Positions 31,966 to 40,117 of a DNA stretch of 64,000 nt are shown piece after piece. Source of the DNA: Acetobacteraceae bacterium (GTDB taxonomy: Bacteria; Pseudomonadota; Alphaproteobacteria; Acetobacterales; Acetobacteraceae); assembly GCA_030041255.1 (NCBI GenBank), contig JASHOF010000012.1:124001-188000 (forward strand), in the 5' to 3' direction. Position numbers and translations under genes: made by a program. Below the pieces are notes generated by a model. That model searched no databases. It was not told the origin of the DNA and worked only from the letters and a program-made list of their open reading frames with translations. Within the stretch, counting starts at the first letter, position 1, and each line of letters opens with the position of its first letter.

Positions 31966-32041
31966 GGTGTGGCCCGCATCGATCCCGGACCGCCGGGGCG
32001 GGCAGGCCCGGTGGCATCCTGAAACGCGGAAGGTTCATTGC

Positions 32042-33487
32042 ATGATCGATTTCGATCTGGTGGTACGCGGGGGTACTGTCGTCACCGGCACTGACACGAT
32101 GCGCGCCGATCTCGGCATTCGTGCCGGCCGCATCGCTGCCATCGCGGAGAAGATCGAGGGCAGAGCGACGCTGGATGCCGGCGGCTTGCTGGTGCTGCCC
32201 GGAGGTGTCGATTCGCATTGCCATATCGAACAGTTGCGGGCCGGCGGCGGGGCTGACGAGGAAACATGGGAGAGCGGCAGCCGCTCCTGCTTCGCGGGCG
32301 GCACCACCTCCGTGATCACGTTCTCGACCCAGTTCAAGGGTGGCGGGATCCTGGAACCGCTCGCCGCGTATCGCAAGCGCGCCGGCCGGGCGATGGTGGA
32401 TTACAGCTTCCACCAGATCATCACCGATCCTACGGACGCGGTGGTATGGAAGGAGATCCCGGAGATCGTCGGTGACGGCATTCGCAGCCTCAAGGTGTTC
32501 CTCACCTACGACGCCATGCATCTGGACGACCGGCAATACCTGCGTGTGCTGGCCGCCGCCCGGCGCAACGGCGCCCTGGTCACCGTGCATTGCGAGAACT
32601 ACGAGGCCATTCGCTGGCGGACCGAGGCGTTGCTCGCCGACGGGAAGGCCGCGCCGAAATACCATAGCTGGTCGCGGCCGCGGATGATCGAGCGGGAGGC
32701 GACGCAGCGCGCCATTGCGCTCGCCGAACTGGTGGACCAGCCGATCCAGGTGTTCCATGTTTCATGTGCCGAGGTGGCGAAGGAGATTGCGCGGGCACAG
32801 GCGAGAGGACTCAAGGTCTGGGGCGAGACCTGCCCGCAGTACCTGGCGCTCACCGCGGCCGACATGGACCGGCCTGGCTTCGAGGGGGCCAAGTTCATGT
32901 GCAGCCCGGCGCCGCGTGACGCGGCGGACCATGCCGGGGTGTGGGACATGGTGCGCCGTGGCGTGCTCGATGTGGTCAGTTCCGACCATTCCGGCTTCCG
33001 TTACGAAGGGACGCGCGGCAAGCGCGCGAACGGGGCGGATGCGAGTTTTCGCGATATTCCGAATGGCGTTCCCGGCCTCGCGACGCGGCTGCCGATCCTG
33101 TTCAGCGAGGGGGTCGTCGCGGGCCGGATCGATATCAACCAGTTCGTGCGCCTGATTGCCACGACGCCGGCCAAACTCTTCGGCCTCTATCCGCAGAAGG
33201 GCAGCATCGCGGTCGGCGCGGATGCCGACCTCGTGCTGTGGGACGCGACCAGGCAGGTGACGCTCAGCAATGGGCTGCTGCAGCAGGCGATCGATTACAC
33301 GCCCTACGAGGGCATGCAGGTGACGGGCTGGCCGGTTGCGACGCTGCGCCGCGGCGAGGTGGTGATGCGCGACGGGCGGGTGCAGGCCGAGCCGGGCAGC
33401 GGGCGCTTCCTGCCGCGTGGCCCCTACGAGGCCGCGAAGCCGCGCGGCGTGCTGCCCGACGGGTTCGACGCCAGCCGTTTCGCCTGA
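32042..33487 (+). CDS. Hydantoinase/dihydropyrimidinase-type cyclic amidohydrolase
   Basis: 481 residues from ATG 32042. Amidohydrolase landmarks: the first metal motif is GGVDSHCHIEQ (HxH, about 59-61), with Cys where most relatives have Thr. The bridging carboxylated Lys is in SLKVFLTYD (about 155), His ligands are in TVHCEN and FHVSC, and the catalytic Asp is in VSSDHSGF. These enzymes open cyclic ureides such as hydantoins and dihydropyrimidines to N-carbamoyl acids. The next gene encodes an N-carbamoyl-amino-acid-type amidohydrolase, the natural second step. Preceded by a Liv-type importer. Confidence 0.88.
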   Translation: MIDFDLVVRGGTVVTGTDTMRADLGIRAGRIAAIAEKIEGRATLDAGGLLVLPGGVDSHCHIEQLRAGGGADEETWESGSRSCFAGGTTSVITFSTQFKGGGILEPLAAYRKRAGRAMVDYSFHQIITDPTDAVVWKEIPEIVGDGIRSLKVFLTYDAMHLDDRQYLRVLAAARRNGALVTVHCENYEAIRWRTEALLADGKAAPKYHSWSRPRMIEREATQRAIALAELVDQPIQVFHVSCAEVAKEIARAQARGLKVWGETCPQYLALTAADMDRPGFEGAKFMCSPAPRDAADHAGVWDMVRRGVLDVVSSDHSGFRYEGTRGKRANGADASFRDIPNGVPGLATRLPILFSEGVVAGRIDINQFVRLIATTPAKLFGLYPQKGSIAVGADADLVLWDATRQVTLSNGLLQQAIDYTPYEGMQVTGWPVATLRRGEVVMRDGRVQAEPGSGRFLPRGPYEAAKPRGVLPDGFDASRFA

Positions 33488-33523
33488 GTTTGGCCCCGGT
33501 TCATCCTGGCGAGGAGAACAGCG

Positions 33524-34798
33524 ATGATCGCTCCGAATGACGCGACCCACGGTTCGGGACGAACTGCGGGTGAGGTGGTCATGGCGCGGCTGGATGAGCT
33601 GGCGTGCTTTTCGGCCGAACCGGGCGCTCTGACCCGCCTTTACCTCTCCACCGAACACAAGGCGGCCGCCCTCAGAGTGCAGGCCTGGATGCAGGAAGCC
33701 GGCATGGATGCCGAGATCGACGCGGCAGGCAACGTCGTCGGCCGTTACGAGGGCCTGGGGCCGGGCCTCCCGGCCGTGCTCCTCGGCTCCCACATCGATA
33801 CCGTGCGCAACGCCGGCAGGTACGACGGCTGCTTCGGCGTCATCGCCGCGATCGAGGCGGTGGCGAATCTCAAGCAGGCGCGCGAGCGCCTGCCCTTTGC
33901 GATCGAAGTCATTGCGTTCGGCGAGGAGGAGGGGGTCCGGTTTCCGGTGGCGCTGACCACCTCGCGCGCCGTTGCCGGAACGCTCGACAGGGCGGCGCTG
34001 GATGCGTTGGACGCCGATGGGATCAGCATCCGCGAAGCGCTGCAGCGGTTCGGCTGCAATCCGTCCGGGATCGCGAGCGTGGCGCGCCGGCGACCGGACG
34101 TGCTGGCCTATGTCGAATTGCACATCGAGCAGGGCCCTGTACTCGAGGCCGAGGGCCTGCCGGTCGGCGTCGTGACCGCGATCGCGGCGGCGGCGCGGTT
34201 TACGGGCGAGGTCACCGGCATGGCCGGCCACGCGGGAACCGTTCCAATGGCGCTGCGCCGCGATGCACTGGCCGCGGCGGCGGAAATGATCCTCGCCATC
34301 GAACGGGTCGGGCGTTCGACGGAGGACCTCGTTGCCACTGTCGGCAGGATCGAAGCGATCCCGGGAGCGGTCAACGTGGTGCCGGGCGGGGCGCGTTTCA
34401 CTCTTGATGTCAGAGGCCCGAGCGAGGCGGTGCGCGATGCCGGCGTGGCGCACATCGAACGGGAGCTGAAAGCGATCGCCGGGAGGCGCACTGTTTCCGT
34501 ACAGCTCTCGCATTCCTACGAGGAGGCCGCCGCCATCTGCGCGCCGTGGCTCGTGGACCAGCTTGCTGCCGCAGTGGAGCGAAACGGCATCGCGCCCAGG
34601 AGACTGCCGAGCGGTGCCGGACACGACGGACTTGCGATGGTCTCGCTCTGCCCGGTCGGCATGCTGTTCGTGCGTTGCGCGGGGGGCATCAGTCACCACC
34701 CGGCAGAGGCGATCACGAGCGAGGACGCCGAGATCGCGATCCGCGTGCTGATCGATTTTCTGCGCCATTTCGCCTCGCCCGGCGGCAGCGCTGACTGA
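33524..34798 (+). CDS. Zn-dependent N-carbamoyl amino acid / allantoate-type amidohydrolase (M20)
   Basis: 424 residues. M20/amidase-hydantoinase-carbamoylase motifs: His and Asp ligands in LLGSHIDTVRNAGRYDGCFG (about 86-105), the catalytic Glu pair in AFGEEEGVRF (about 131-140), a ligand His in VELHIEQGP, and a dimerisation-domain MAGHAGTVPM. Hydrolyses N-carbamoyl-amino acids or beta-ureido acids to the free amino acid, CO2 and ammonia. A GAGGAGAAC site precedes the ATG, 36 bp after the hydantoinase, so the two form a pathway pair. Confidence 0.88.
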   Translation: MIAPNDATHGSGRTAGEVVMARLDELACFSAEPGALTRLYLSTEHKAAALRVQAWMQEAGMDAEIDAAGNVVGRYEGLGPGLPAVLLGSHIDTVRNAGRYDGCFGVIAAIEAVANLKQARERLPFAIEVIAFGEEEGVRFPVALTTSRAVAGTLDRAALDALDADGISIREALQRFGCNPSGIASVARRRPDVLAYVELHIEQGPVLEAEGLPVGVVTAIAAAARFTGEVTGMAGHAGTVPMALRRDALAAAAEMILAIERVGRSTEDLVATVGRIEAIPGAVNVVPGGARFTLDVRGPSEAVRDAGVAHIERELKAIAGRRTVSVQLSHSYEEAAAICAPWLVDQLAAAVERNGIAPRRLPSGAGHDGLAMVSLCPVGMLFVRCAGGISHHPAEAITSEDAEIAIRVLIDFLRHFASPGGSAD

Positions 34799-34822
34799 TG
34801 ATCGCGGCAAGGAGGCACGAGC

Positions 34823-36058
34823 ATGAGCGACAGCGCCGGCCGGGCGATCACGAGGTTCCTGGACGGTCAGCAGGAAGCGCAAACGCGGTTCCTGGCCGAA
34901 CTTGTCAAATGCCCGTCCGATAACCCGCCCGGCGACTGCGCCGCCCATGCCGGGCGCGCTGCCAGGCTGCTCGAAGAACTCGGGCTCGAGGTGGAGCGCC
35001 ACCCCGTCCCTGATGCGGCGGTGAAGGCAAACGGCATGGTCAGCGCCACCAACCTCGTCATCCGCAAGCGATTTGGCGACGGCCCGGTGATCGCACTCAA
35101 CGCCCACGGCGACGTCGTTCCGCCGGGCAGCGGATGGACCCGTGATCCTTACGGCGCGGAGGTCATTGACGGTTGGATGTACGGGCGCGGTGTCGCGGTC
35201 TCGAAATCCGATTTCGCGACCTATACCTGGAGCCTGCTCGCCCTCCAGCAGGCCGGAGTGCCGCTGGGGGGCACGGTCGAGCTGCATTTCACCTACGACG
35301 AGGAGGCGGGCGGCAATATCGGCCCAGGTTTCCTGATGCGCGAAGGAATCAGCAAGCCCGACCTCGTTGTCGGTGCGGGTTTCTCCTACGCCGTCGTCAC
35401 GGCACACAATGGCTGCCTGCACCTCGAAGTACAGGTGGACGGGAAATCGGCGCACGCCGCGATGCCGTATACCGGCATCGATGCCCTCGAAGCCGCCAAT
35501 CACCTGCTCTCCTCCCTCTATGCCTGGAGGAAGACACTCACCCGCCGGCTTTCCGATGTGCCGGGTATCGGCAACCCGCAACTGACCGTCGGGCTCATCA
35601 AGGGCGGCATCAACACCAATGTCGTTCCCGACCGGGTCAGCTTCCGGCTTGATCGTCGTATGATTCCCGAAGAGAAACCACCCGAGGTCGAGGCGGAGTT
35701 GCGGGCGGTGATCGACGGGGCAGCCGCTGCCTTCCCGGATGCCAAAGTTACAGTGCGTCGCATCCTGCTCGTCGAGCCGCTGGCGCCGCTCGCCAAGGGC
35801 CGGCGGTTGAGCGAATTGCTCGCACACCATGCAACCCGCATCATGGGCGAACCGGTGGGAGCCAAGGGCGTGCCGCTCTACACCGACGCGCCGCACTATT
35901 CCGCCCGCAGCACCCCGGTCGTGCTCTACGGCGCCGGGCCGCATACGATCGAGGAGGCCAATGCGCACCGCGCCGACGAGCGCCTTCCGTTGGCGGATCT
36001 GCATCGGGCCACAAAGGTCGTGGCGCTGACATTGCTCGATCTTTTGCGCGGAGCCTGA
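34823..36058 (+). CDS. M20-family metallohydrolase (ArgE/DapE-like)
   Basis: 411 residues. First metal His-Asp in ALNAHGDVVPPG (His 95, Asp 97), catalytic/metal Glu-Glu at 160-161 (YDEEAGG), dimerisation domain with GKSAHAAMPYTG. Odd point: the bridging Asp of the usual GRGAADMKG motif is replaced; the sequence reads GRGVAVSKSD (121-130), with Val at 126 and an Asp four residues later. Either a subfamily with a shifted ligand or an altered metal site. AAGGAGG precedes the ATG, 24 bp after the carbamoylase. Probably removes an acyl or formyl group in the same catabolic route. Confidence 0.82.
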   Translation: MSDSAGRAITRFLDGQQEAQTRFLAELVKCPSDNPPGDCAAHAGRAARLLEELGLEVERHPVPDAAVKANGMVSATNLVIRKRFGDGPVIALNAHGDVVPPGSGWTRDPYGAEVIDGWMYGRGVAVSKSDFATYTWSLLALQQAGVPLGGTVELHFTYDEEAGGNIGPGFLMREGISKPDLVVGAGFSYAVVTAHNGCLHLEVQVDGKSAHAAMPYTGIDALEAANHLLSSLYAWRKTLTRRLSDVPGIGNPQLTVGLIKGGINTNVVPDRVSFRLDRRMIPEEKPPEVEAELRAVIDGAAAAFPDAKVTVRRILLVEPLAPLAKGRRLSELLAHHATRIMGEPVGAKGVPLYTDAPHYSARSTPVVLYGAGPHTIEEANAHRADERLPLADLHRATKVVALTLLDLLRGA

Positions 36059-36538
36059 GGTGGCTCTGCGGAACAGCATCTTGTGGGCCCGTTGGTCCGA
36101 TGCGGCTGGCGCTCTGCGATGACAGGACGGCGGATACGAATTGCCGGGGCGGGACATCGGGGCCGCCGGCAGCGAGTGTAGCCACGAAGCGGGGGACCGG
36201 TCGATCGGGGCGCGAGCACGAGGGGGGCGGAAGCGCCGTGCCCTGAGCCGAGCGGGATTCGCCGCTGCGTGACACGGGCGGCAAAAAATCTGAAACGGTT
36301 AACCTTTACCCACAATCAGTGCATTGGATGCGCATCGGTAGCCGATCGTCGCAACCGAGCCGGGCATGAAGACTCGTTAAAATGCTTATGGTTGCATAGT
36401 TCCCTTGTGTGTTCTTATTTTGTTCCGGCCAACATTGCCTTGTTTGGGATTTCTCACGAATTCTTTCGCAACTGCGCGTTATGCTTGCAGTTCCGGCCGG
36501 TGCGCCGGCATTCGTCAAATCATCAAGGAGCCCCTCTC
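36059..36538. other. 480-bp gap with AT-rich region upstream of the rpfF-like gene
   Basis: The first ~230 bp are GC-rich and show no coding pattern. From about 36290 to 36500 the sequence becomes markedly AT-richer than the rest of the window, with AAAAAA, TTAAAA and several T-rich runs, then AAGGAG just before the 36539 ATG. This fits a strong or heavily regulated promoter region for the rpfF-like gene. No single sigma-70 promoter stood out and no repeat or RNA was recognised. Confidence 0.4.
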
Positions 36539-37525
36539 ATGACCTCTCTGCCCCGGAATGTCGAAGTCCTCGAGCCCCGGGATTCCGTGCTCGTTTCGAA
36601 GGCCTCGGAGCTGCTCAGCCCGAGAACCCGTGCCGGCAACCTGTTCCCCACCGAGGTGGCCCGCCAGGCATACGAGAATCTCGAAGTGCGGCTTGACGCG
36701 GATGCCGCGACTTTCTGGTGCTACATGAATCCGACCGGCAGGCCGAGCTTCACCCCGCCAATGCTCAGGGACATCACACGGATGCAGCATTCGGTGAAGC
36801 GGATGTTTGATGCGGCCGGCGGTGACGGCGAGCCTCCGTTCCGCTATTTCGTTTTTGCGTCGCGCACGCCGGGAATTTACAGCCTGGGCGGAGATCTCGG
36901 GTTCTTCATCGAGCATATTCGCCAGGGCGATCGGGCGGCGATGACCCGCTATGCGCATTACGCGATCGAGGCGGTGTATCGCAATTCCGCCCAGTTCCAC
37001 GTCCCCGTCGTGACGATCGGGCTGGTGCAGGGTGATGCGCTCGGTGGCGGGTTCGAATGCGCGATGTCGCTCAACCTGATGGTTGCGGAAAAGAGCGCGA
37101 AGATGGGCCTGCCGGAGATCCTGTTCAACCTGTTCCCGGGCATGGGTGCGTACAGCTTCCTGACCCGTCGGCTCGATGTGCAGCGGGCGGAGAAGCTGAT
37201 CACGAGCGGGTGCATCTATTCGGCTGCAGAACTGCACGAGATGGGAATTGTCGACGTGCTGGCCGAGGACGGATGCGGCGAGTCCGCCGTTCGCGAGTAC
37301 ATCGCAACCAACCGGTGCAAGTGGAATGCGCATTATGCGATGTTCCAGGCGCGCCAGCGGGTGCGGCCGATTACGCTCGAAGAATTGCGCGACGTGGTTG
37401 ACATCTGGGTGGATGCCGCGCTGCGCCTGCCGGAGTCCGATCTCAGGAAGATGGAGCGGCTGGTGGCCTCCCAGGACCGGCGGATGGCGGCACTCAGGCG
37501 CGTGCCGGAGAGTGCCGTTGCGTGA
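36539..37525 (+). CDS. rpfF: RpfF-like DSF (cis-2-enoic fatty acid signal) synthase of the crotonase family
   Basis: 328 residues from ATG 36539 with AAGGAG upstream. Crotonase fold with the RpfF pattern throughout: YSLGGDLGFFIEHIRQGDR (114-132), LVQGDALGGGFECAM (162-176), MGLPEILFNLFPGMGAYSF (189-207). The catalytic Glu residues of RpfF correspond to Glu173 (GGGFE) and Glu193 (GLPE), both present. The N-terminus is about 35 residues longer than in Xanthomonas RpfF. RpfF acts as dehydratase and thioesterase on 3-hydroxyacyl-ACP to release diffusible signal factor. Convergent with a PAS-GGDEF-EAL gene, the domain type that senses this signal in Burkholderia and Cronobacter. Product chain length unknown. 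Confidence 0.85.
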   Translation: MTSLPRNVEVLEPRDSVLVSKASELLSPRTRAGNLFPTEVARQAYENLEVRLDADAATFWCYMNPTGRPSFTPPMLRDITRMQHSVKRMFDAAGGDGEPPFRYFVFASRTPGIYSLGGDLGFFIEHIRQGDRAAMTRYAHYAIEAVYRNSAQFHVPVVTIGLVQGDALGGGFECAMSLNLMVAEKSAKMGLPEILFNLFPGMGAYSFLTRRLDVQRAEKLITSGCIYSAAELHEMGIVDVLAEDGCGESAVREYIATNRCKWNAHYAMFQARQRVRPITLEELRDVVDIWVDAALRLPESDLRKMERLVASQDRRMAALRRVPESAVA

Positions 37526-37891
37526 TCAGAATGAAATCGCGAGGCAAACAGGTACCGCTGACATGGATGGATGACAGCGGCCCCTTGGCCGGCCGCTTCG
37601 CTAAGACGCCCGGTCCTGGTCCTTCTTTCACGGAGGGAGGGGCGGCGTTGCCTCGCGCCTCCGGTGCGTATCCTGGCGGAGAGGGTTGAGGTGAAGGTGG
37701 GTCACACACCCGGGAAGGTTGCGAGCGGGGAGCGGACAAAAACTGCCCGCCTGCCCGTCGCGGTTCCTGGGCCGAGGTGCCAGGGCGCCGATGCAGAGCG
37801 TGGAGCCGGCGGGGCAACCCTGGAAGATCGGCGCGACCCGGGGCGAGCGCAAGTGACAGCCCTTGCCGGGACCGGGCGCGGAGAGGACGGC
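37526..37891. other. 366-bp convergent gap after rpfF
   Basis: Lies between two convergent genes. An inverted repeat AGCGGCC (37576-37582) / GGCCGCT (37591-37597) with loop CCTTGGCC may act as a weak two-way terminator. The remainder is GC-rich with purine-rich stretches (e.g. near 37625-37690). Open frames there have no recognisable product. Nothing else is supported. Confidence 0.35.
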
Positions 37892-40117
37892 TCAGCGAGG
37901 CTCCTCGGCGAGGATGGCGGGCTCGGCTACCGAACGCGCTTCGTGGGGCTGCCCGGGCTGGAACGCGTCCTGGCGCGCCAGGAGGGAAAGCGGGTCAGCC
38001 GCGAGTAGAGGGGCGATTTCCGCCGCGGGCAATGGCCGGGCGAGATAGAATCCCTGCAGTTCATCACAGTCCTCGGCCGCGAGCTGGCAGAACTGCTCGG
38101 CAGTTTCTACGCCCTCGGCAAGGGCGCGGGCGCCGAGGCTGTGGGCGAGGTTGATGATGGCGCGAACGATGGCGGCATCCGCCCGGCTGGTCATCAGGGG
38201 GCCGACGAAGCTCTGATCGATTTTCAGGCGATGTACCGGGAACATCTTCAGGTAGGTCAGTGAGGAATAGCCGGTGCCGAAATCGTCGATTGCGAAGCGG
38301 ACCCCGAGCTCGTAGAGCTCGCTGAGGTCACGGGCCATGGTTTCGATATTCGCCATCACGACCCGTTCCGTGAGCTCGAGCTCCAGATTGCCGGGATCGA
38401 GGCCGCTTTCATCGAGGGCGGAGAGGATGAGATCCCTGACATTCTGCTTACGGAATTGCTCGGATGAGAGATTGACGGCGATCCTCATCCGTGCCCGCTC
38501 GGTGCCGAACCAGGCCCGGGCCTGGCGACAGGATTCGCGGAGCACCCATTCGTTGATGGGAACGATCAGCCCGGACTCCTCGGCGAGGGAGAGGAACTCG
38601 GCGGGCAATACGACGCCCTGGCCGGGACGGTTCCAGCGCAGCAGCGATTCGATGCCGACGATGCGCCGCGAACCGATTTCGAACTGCGGCTGGTAATAGA
38701 GTTCGAACTCCTGTCGCTGCAGGGCGAGGTTCAATTCGGATTCGAGTGCAATCAGGCCTTTCGCGCGGCGACGCATCTCGTCCACGAAGCAGCAATAATC
38801 GTCCCGGCCGGAGGCCTTGGCGCGATACATCGCGAGATCCGCGTTGCGCAGCAGGTCATCCGCCGTGGTGGCATCGCGCGGGCAGAGCGTGATGCCGACC
38901 GAGGCGGTTGCCTTGAGCTCGTGGCGCTCGAAGAAGAAGGGCTGGCGCATTGCCTCGATCACCCGCCGGGCAAGTGCGATCGCGTCCTCCTCGCCGGCGA
39001 TATCCGGTTGCACGATCGCGAATTCGTCTCCGCCAAGGCGGGCGACGATATCGCTGCCCCTGACCGAGGCACTGAGGCGGGTTGCGACGACCTTGAGGAA
39101 CTGGTCACCGACATGGTGGCCGAAAGCGTCGTTCACCGACTTGAAGCGATCGAGGTCGATGAAGTGCAGCGCCAGCATCCCACCCGTGGCCTCGATTCTT
39201 TTCAGCTCGATATCGAGACGCTCCGCAAGGAGAGTGCGGTTGGGAAGGTTGATCAGGGTGTCGTAGTGCGCGAGGTGGTGCAGGCGCTCTTCGGCGCGCT
39301 TGCGGTCGGTGATGTCGAGCGAGGTGGTGAGTACCCCGCTCACGCTGCCATCCGCATTGCGGAGCGGAGATTTCGAAGTGACGAAATAGCGGCGCCTGCC
39401 GTCGTGGCCGGTGATCTCGTCCTCGAACTCCGGAATCGCTTCGCCGGTGGCGGCGACCATCGCGTCGAGTTCGCGGCTTTTCACGGCATAGGCGTCGCCG
39501 AACAAGGAGGAGAGATCACGCCCGGCCAGGGAAGTCGGATCGGAGCCAGCGAAGCGGGCGAGGCAGACATTGGTGAAGATCAGCCGGCCTTCGATGTCGG
39601 AGGCGCTGATCATGGCCGGCACGGTGTCGATGACCTGGATCAATCGTTCGTGATTGTCCCGCAGCATCTGCACCTTGGCCTGCTCGCTCGACTGCAGGCG
39701 GCGCTCGAGCGCGCGTGCCCAGCGGCGCAGCACCACCTGCTGGCGGCGCATCTTCAGCAGGTTCTTGGCGCGGGTCAGGAACTCGACATGGTCGACCGGG
39801 CTGAGCAGAAAGTCGGTGGCACCGGACCGCAGGGCAACGATCCGGAAGTCGTAATCGTCGTGCACGGTGATGATGATGACCGGGACCTCGCCGCCGTCGG
39901 GCAGGAGGCGCAGCGCACGGGTCATTTCCGCGCCATCCATGAGCGGCATTTTGAAATCGGCGATCACGAGGTCGGGCATGGTCTTTTCCGCCTCGGCGAG
40001 CGCGCTGGCGGGATCGGCGAAAGAGACGACCTTGCAGTTGGCGCCGATCGACTGGGCAAGGCGCGAGTAGATGCGCCGGTTCGTGGAAAGGTCGTCGACG
40101 ATGAAGATCAGCGGCAT
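37892..40117 (-). CDS. REC-PAS-GGDEF-EAL c-di-GMP signalling protein
   Basis: 741 residues from ATG 40117; the frame starts 20 residues earlier, but the receiver begins here. Receiver 1-120: acidic pair DD at 8-9, phospho-acceptor Asp54, Thr84, but Ser106 where the invariant Lys of KP is expected. Helical linker, PAS about 150-272, GGDEF about 280-440 with GGDEF at 362-366 and the product-inhibition RxxD at 353-356. EAL about 455-705 with ESL (490-492) for EAL, and NLSS, LTER, DDFGTGYSSL, LKIDQ and AEGVET intact. Both synthesis and hydrolysis of c-di-GMP look possible. Its position beside rpfF suggests the PAS could sense the fatty-acid signal. Confidence 0.9.
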   Translation of the reverse strand: MPLIFIVDDLSTNRRIYSRLAQSIGANCKVVSFADPASALAEAEKTMPDLVIADFKMPLMDGAEMTRALRLLPDGGEVPVIIITVHDDYDFRIVALRSGATDFLLSPVDHVEFLTRAKNLLKMRRQQVVLRRWARALERRLQSSEQAKVQMLRDNHERLIQVIDTVPAMISASDIEGRLIFTNVCLARFAGSDPTSLAGRDLSSLFGDAYAVKSRELDAMVAATGEAIPEFEDEITGHDGRRRYFVTSKSPLRNADGSVSGVLTTSLDITDRKRAEERLHHLAHYDTLINLPNRTLLAERLDIELKRIEATGGMLALHFIDLDRFKSVNDAFGHHVGDQFLKVVATRLSASVRGSDIVARLGGDEFAIVQPDIAGEEDAIALARRVIEAMRQPFFFERHELKATASVGITLCPRDATTADDLLRNADLAMYRAKASGRDDYCCFVDEMRRRAKGLIALESELNLALQRQEFELYYQPQFEIGSRRIVGIESLLRWNRPGQGVVLPAEFLSLAEESGLIVPINEWVLRESCRQARAWFGTERARMRIAVNLSSEQFRKQNVRDLILSALDESGLDPGNLELELTERVVMANIETMARDLSELYELGVRFAIDDFGTGYSSLTYLKMFPVHRLKIDQSFVGPLMTSRADAAIVRAIINLAHSLGARALAEGVETAEQFCQLAAEDCDELQGFYLARPLPAAEIAPLLAADPLSLLARQDAFQPGQPHEARSVAEPAILAEEPR

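Follow-up and report, generated by a model that had tools for sequence, protein, structure and literature searches.

A DSF-type synthase gene and a REC-PAS-GGDEF-EAL regulator gene in Acetobacteraceae: a probable RpfC-type phosphorelay with an unlinked sensor gene

A stretch of 64,000 nucleotides from an Acetobacteraceae genome (contig JASHOF010000012.1, positions 124,001 to 188,000; G000:C34:124001-188000 in our numbering, G000 being the draft assembly of the window genome), hereafter the window, carries two intact, convergent genes separated by 366 bp: a crotonase gene resembling rpfF, the synthase gene of diffusible signal factor (DSF) systems, and the gene for a REC-PAS-GGDEF-EAL response regulator. 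Judged from a comparison with about 90 related genomes, and with a probability that we put at roughly 75%, this pair supplies both the synthase and the response regulator for a phosphorelay of the DSF type, leading from RpfF through the sensor RpfC to the regulator, whose sensor gene is unlinked. The gene families, the intact motifs, the orthology of the regulator to rpfC-linked regulators, the co-occurrence of RpfF and RpfC and the relocation of rpfC were all read from sequence; the signal made, its sensing, the phosphotransfer and the direction of the change in cyclic di-GMP (c-di-GMP) are presumed by analogy with Xanthomonas. A link between DSF and c-di-GMP at this locus had already been proposed from the letters of the window (the original prediction), and it is the best reading; the membership of the crotonase in the RpfF family and the conserved pairing of the two genes are supported as well.

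The crotonase (328 aa; 36539..37525, plus strand) was assigned from its open reading frame (ORF), from structure and profile matches and from a tree. The motifs LGGDL (residues 116-120), GGGFE (169-173), MGLPE (189-193) and FPGMGAYSF, which had first suggested an RpfF with both catalytic glutamates, were all located, and Glu173 (37055-37057, plus strand) and Glu193 (37115-37117, plus strand) align with Glu141 and Glu161 of the RpfF of Xanthomonas campestris pv. campestris (Xcc). In the same alignment G118 and G170 match Xcc G86 and G138, the roles of these four Xcc residues being covered in PMC9040811. When solved structures were searched, the best four matches (7zq7, 3m6m, 6dgn and 5fus) were RpfF or RpfF-like proteins with E values of 1e-49 or better, and the first ordinary hydratase came fifth, with an E value of 3e-14; this similarity to solved RpfF is enough to fix the fold of the protein. 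The tree, as the original prediction would have it, places the window protein among alphaproteobacterial RpfFs, mostly those of rpfC-bearing loci; xanthomonad RpfFs and RpfR-partnered RpfFs form separate groups, the deep order of the groups being poorly supported, and ordinary hydratases sit on very long branches. By sequence the crotonase belongs to the RpfF family, and it is a predicted synthase of a cis-2-unsaturated fatty acid.

The neighbouring regulator (741 aa; 37892..40117, minus strand) has the RpfG position, as the partner of RpfC in relatives. Its domains, all on the minus strand, are a receiver (residues 4-116, 39770..40108) with the phospho-acceptor Asp in VIADFKMP, a PAS domain (residues 164-274, 39296..39628), a GGDEF domain (residues 283-439, 38801..39271) with an intact GGDEF and the upstream RxxD, and an EAL domain (residues 461-695, 38033..38737) in which the signature reads ESL and the remaining usual EAL motifs are present; the receiver Asp and the GGDEF and EAL motifs were identified by inspection. 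In the tree its GGDEF-EAL part clusters with those of regulators linked to rpfC (support 87) and is separate from the RpfR proteins (L166-L168) and also from the other EAL proteins of the window genome. Membership of the RpfR group was rejected on the strength of the receiver at residues 4-116 and of this position outside that group. In the rpfC-unlinked family genomes examined, the window genus excluded, the regulator gene adjoins rpfC and rpfF is found elsewhere; that the regulator stays with rpfC when rpfF separates shows it to be the partner of RpfC. The whole window genome yielded no HD-GYP (HD_5) protein and four EAL proteins in all, which leaves this REC-EAL regulator as the only candidate seen for an RpfG-like role.

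The output of this regulator varies. Among 55 family loci counted, approximately 46 had GGDEF-EAL, approximately 8 had REC-PAS only and one had REC-PAS-GAF-PAS. Outside the family, regulators confirmed by Pfam included REC-PAS-histidine kinases (L052-L054) and REC-HD-GYP proteins (L033, L034, L164 and L181); the rpfC-linked kinase-type regulators of L052, L053 and L054 would extend the relay to a further regulator. In one genome (G387, L109:3605-7714) the regulator frame does not stop after the EAL domain and reads on for another 650 aa, without a Pfam match, as far as the end of rpfF, possibly as the result of a deletion or of sequence errors.

The sensor gene missing from the window could be placed by comparison with a sister species (G001), where an 839-aa gene lies between the pair in the order rpfF-rpfC-regulator-argG, argG adjoining the regulator gene there and in the window alike. 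Its product has an input domain followed by HisKA, HATPase, REC and Hpt, which is the architecture of RpfC, and rpfC lies beside rpfF across the family, in Aureimonas and in other alphaproteobacteria. Locus comparison shows the 366-bp gap of the window (37526..37891, no strand) to be the position of rpfC in G001 and most relatives, where rpfC adjoins rpfF and forms an operon with the regulator gene, an arrangement found neither in the window genome nor in a separate assembly, G004. A search of the gap for an rpfC remnant gave nothing convincing, the one 30-residue match (E 0.001) being to a single relative only. The window genome does have one RpfC (G000:C79; ORF L091:7684-10281, minus strand, 837 aa from the likely ATG), encoded in an alaS region (alaS assigned by sequence alone) between cytochrome P450 and short-chain dehydrogenase genes. 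The original prediction had found neither an RpfC nor an HD-GYP gene nearby, which is right for the window; elsewhere in the genome an RpfC is encoded. G004 has this gap too and an unlinked rpfC on its contig C19, in a matching arrangement, and an assembly gap was therefore rejected as the cause of the missing gene. The comparison of loci indicates that in the window species and in G004, its nearest relative, rpfC alone moved away.

The unlinked RpfC has the domains HisKA-HATPase-REC-Hpt and several transmembrane-like segments, and it retains the H-box, the receiver Asp and an Hpt-like AHAVCSGA motif. Its N-terminus reads R-A-D-T-E-H, equal to the Xcc sensor residues R15, D17, S18 (as Thr) and E19; in Xcc RpfC these residues and Q22 are required for DSF sensing, and Thr is accepted at position 18 (PMC5391125). 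The RpfCs of relatives begin with R-P-D-S-E-H or close variants, the segment having diverged in some lineages. In the tree the RpfC of the window genome groups with those of G001 and G002 with support of 100, so rpfC has been inherited vertically within the genus; a foreign origin of the unlinked gene was rejected on the same ground.

Taken together, the pair appears to belong to an RpfC-type phosphorelay whose output domain has been exchanged and whose sensor gene has moved, and not to a sensor-less RpfF/RpfR pair, because the regulator groups with rpfC-linked regulators, rpfC lies between the two genes in G001 and the window genome keeps an RpfC. In view of these three observations the earlier reading of the neighbour as an RpfR variant that senses through its PAS domain is not supported. 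In the proposed relay RpfF would make a cis-2-unsaturated fatty acid (cis-2-enoic acid), which the membrane hybrid kinase RpfC would sense with the help of its transmembrane input domain and of a short R-x-D-T-E-H segment at its N-terminus. RpfC would then pass phosphate from His to Asp to His and on to the receiver of the REC-PAS-GGDEF-EAL regulator, and the phosphorylated regulator would change c-di-GMP turnover, most likely by raising its EAL phosphodiesterase activity, so that the EAL output would stand in for the HD-GYP domain of RpfG. By analogy with Xanthomonas the relay would probably lower c-di-GMP through EAL, and RpfC may also bind and restrain RpfF. An unlikely elaboration is a dual input, in which the receiver of the regulator is phosphorylated by RpfC while its PAS domain binds the fatty acid, and a single GGDEF-EAL enzyme would combine the signal from outside the cell with that from within; in relatives the RpfC-coupled REC-PAS front end would have been refitted with a histidine kinase, with GAF-PAS or with no output.

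RpfF and RpfC also go together across the family. Among 397 family genomes, in which RpfC was scored by its input domain, RpfF was present in 92 and RpfC in 91, with both in 84; RpfC thus occurred in 84/92 RpfF-positive and 7/305 RpfF-negative genomes (Fisher p ~1e-67). Counted by genus, 31 had both, 3 RpfF only, 4 RpfC only and 64 neither (Fisher p ~2e-18), both p-values ignoring relatedness above the level used, genome or genus. The distance between rpfF and rpfC was 8 kb or less in 66 of the 84 genomes having both, and in the other 18 the genes were apart, some of them at contig ends and, in G105, 204 kb from each other on one contig. The pair of rpfF and the regulator gene is met repeatedly in the family and in other alphaproteobacteria, in most cases with rpfC between the two or at their side, as the original prediction expected of relatives for the pair, and for this reason the association is not due to chance.

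Several records met in this survey stand apart. G185 (L127, L201) carries RpfF in two copies, no RpfC was detected in it, and in L127 a PAS hybrid histidine kinase gene is convergent with rpfF, its product being a possible alternative sensor. A record labelled Mycobacterium sp. KBS0706 (L027, NZ_VCCH02000095.1) carries a full alphaproteobacterial rpfF-rpfC-regulator locus and a second RpfC-sensor-like ORF, and is likely mislabelled or contaminated. Tenacibaculum (Bacteroidota; L037-L041) has RpfF-family genes of 34-37% identity, and no match to RpfC, REC-PAS or GGDEF-EAL was found near them.

Some results weigh against an RpfC-coupled relay. Support for the regulator clade is only moderate (87), the Xcc sensing residue Q22 is Met in the RpfC of the window species, and no RpfC was detected in eight of the RpfF-positive family genomes. 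Between the window genome and G001, RpfF is 82% and the regulator 89% identical, while RpfC, unlinked in the former, is 58% identical, and the relay may thus have drifted. Finally, the window RpfF scores 212.7 bits on the NCBIfam RpfF equivalog NF053515, under its 550-bit cut-off. That cut-off is too narrow to decide membership, since of the control RpfFs only one, from a xanthomonad locus, passed it with 580 bits, and a second xanthomonad-type RpfF (370) and RpfR-partnered RpfFs (180-182) fell short as well. It is very improbable that the crotonase is an ordinary enoyl-CoA hydratase beside which a c-di-GMP gene lies by chance. The best NCBIfam match is indeed to the loosely named 'crotonase/enoyl-CoA hydratase family protein' (the broad model NF006452, 369 bits); known RpfFs, however, matched that same model in control scoring, the window protein is far nearer to RpfF than to any hydratase, and the association of rpfF with the regulator gene is conserved across the family.

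The convergence of rpfF with a PAS-GGDEF-EAL gene is also the layout of RpfFR systems, Methylobacterium and Sphingomonas plasmids have rpfF convergent with the gene for a GGDEF-EAL protein without REC, and rpfC is gone from this locus in the window genome, all of which would suit a system of the RpfF/RpfR type, in which the PAS domain of the regulator senses the fatty acid directly, no RpfC is needed and the receiver replaces the RpfF-interacting N-terminus of RpfR. We nevertheless consider this doubtful: the regulator has a receiver with its Asp and is orthologous to rpfC-linked regulators, the RpfRs falling elsewhere in the GGDEF-EAL tree, the window genome retains RpfC, and upon separation in other family genomes the regulator remains with rpfC and not with rpfF. 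About equally doubtful is a decayed or rewired system, in which RpfF and the regulator no longer work with RpfC since rpfC moved, RpfF being constitutive or having another role and the regulator answering another kinase. Among the loci examined only the genus of the window parts rpfC from both partners, of the three proteins RpfC has diverged most between the window genome and G001, and in G387, where no RpfC was found, the genes for RpfF and the regulator are together; against this, G000 and G004, two separate assemblies, each have all three genes intact, and functional motifs are retained. The RpfC-type relay with an unlinked sensor gene is the reading that we prefer.

As to the locus itself, an alternative upstream GTG at 36269 would extend the crotonase frame, and is the less likely start because a ribosome-binding-site-like AAGGAG, read directly from the sequence (36525..36530, plus strand), precedes the ATG at 36539. 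Upstream of rpfF the window holds three co-directional genes (31967-36058), one hydantoinase/dihydropyrimidinase-like and two M20-type amidohydrolase-like, which are present in the window species and in G004 and were not found in the G001 flank. Close public loci, with protein identities of 98% and 82%, are labelled Acetobacteraceae bacterium JOPF011 and Proteobacteria bacterium YP4.bin76 respectively, and the label of the former, near-identical locus agrees with the original assignment of the DNA to a relative of the acetic acid bacteria.

A 2015 review recognises two core DSF designs, RpfC/RpfG with HD-GYP and RpfR with PAS-GGDEF-EAL (PMC4504480), a survey of acidophiles, Acidiphilium among them, reports that complete DSF systems were limited to Leptospirillum and Acidithiobacillus (PMC9040811), and a review of acetic acid bacteria deals with acyl-homoserine lactone (AHL) systems (PMC7889782). 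Our search of the open-access literature, with subscription papers outside its scope, found no account of RpfF/RpfC or DSF in Acetobacteraceae and no description of an RpfC-coupled GGDEF-EAL regulator; given that coverage, the novelty of the design is provisional. The RpfC design with GGDEF-EAL output is present in about a quarter of the sampled Acetobacteraceae and in some other alphaproteobacteria, with an output domain that varies by lineage, and it suggests that signalling of the DSF type occurs in a large environmental family whose signalling the papers found describe as AHL-based. In several genera rpfF and rpfC have separated and both have been retained, which offers a natural test of which partners are functionally bound.

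Compared with known systems, the one described here shares with Xanthomonas RpfF/RpfC/RpfG an RpfF with both catalytic glutamates, the domain order of RpfC and its R-x-D-S/T-E sensor segment, and, in relatives of the window, an rpfF convergent with a regulator-rpfC operon; it differs in that the output of the window regulator is PAS-GGDEF-EAL and not HD-GYP, the rpfC of the window species is on another contig and Q22 of RpfC is replaced by Met. The loci L163-L165, called xanthomonad because of their gene content and because L164 lies close to the Xcc RpfF structure, have R-P-D-S-E-H-G-Q and the same convergent layout, and the L164 regulator is REC-HD-GYP by Pfam. The rpfFCG genes of Leptospirillum likewise place rpfF with rpfC and a regulator gene outside the xanthomonads (PMC8357829), but there the regulator is an HD-GYP RpfG and the genes are co-directional (PMC8357829; Nitrospirota locus L033). 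Burkholderia and Cronobacter RpfF/RpfR have the same convergence of rpfF with a PAS-GGDEF-EAL gene (PMC4504480), whereas the window regulator has an N-terminal receiver, a GGDEF-EAL part outside the RpfR group and an RpfC encoded in the same genome. The large plasmids of Methylobacterium radiotolerans, Sphingomonas parapaucimobilis and Methylobacterium sp. NMS14P (L212, L213 and L214) carry RpfR-like pairs, in which an alphaproteobacterial rpfF is again convergent with a GGDEF-EAL gene; unlike the window pair, these have no receiver domain, and their annotated flanks hold no rpfC.

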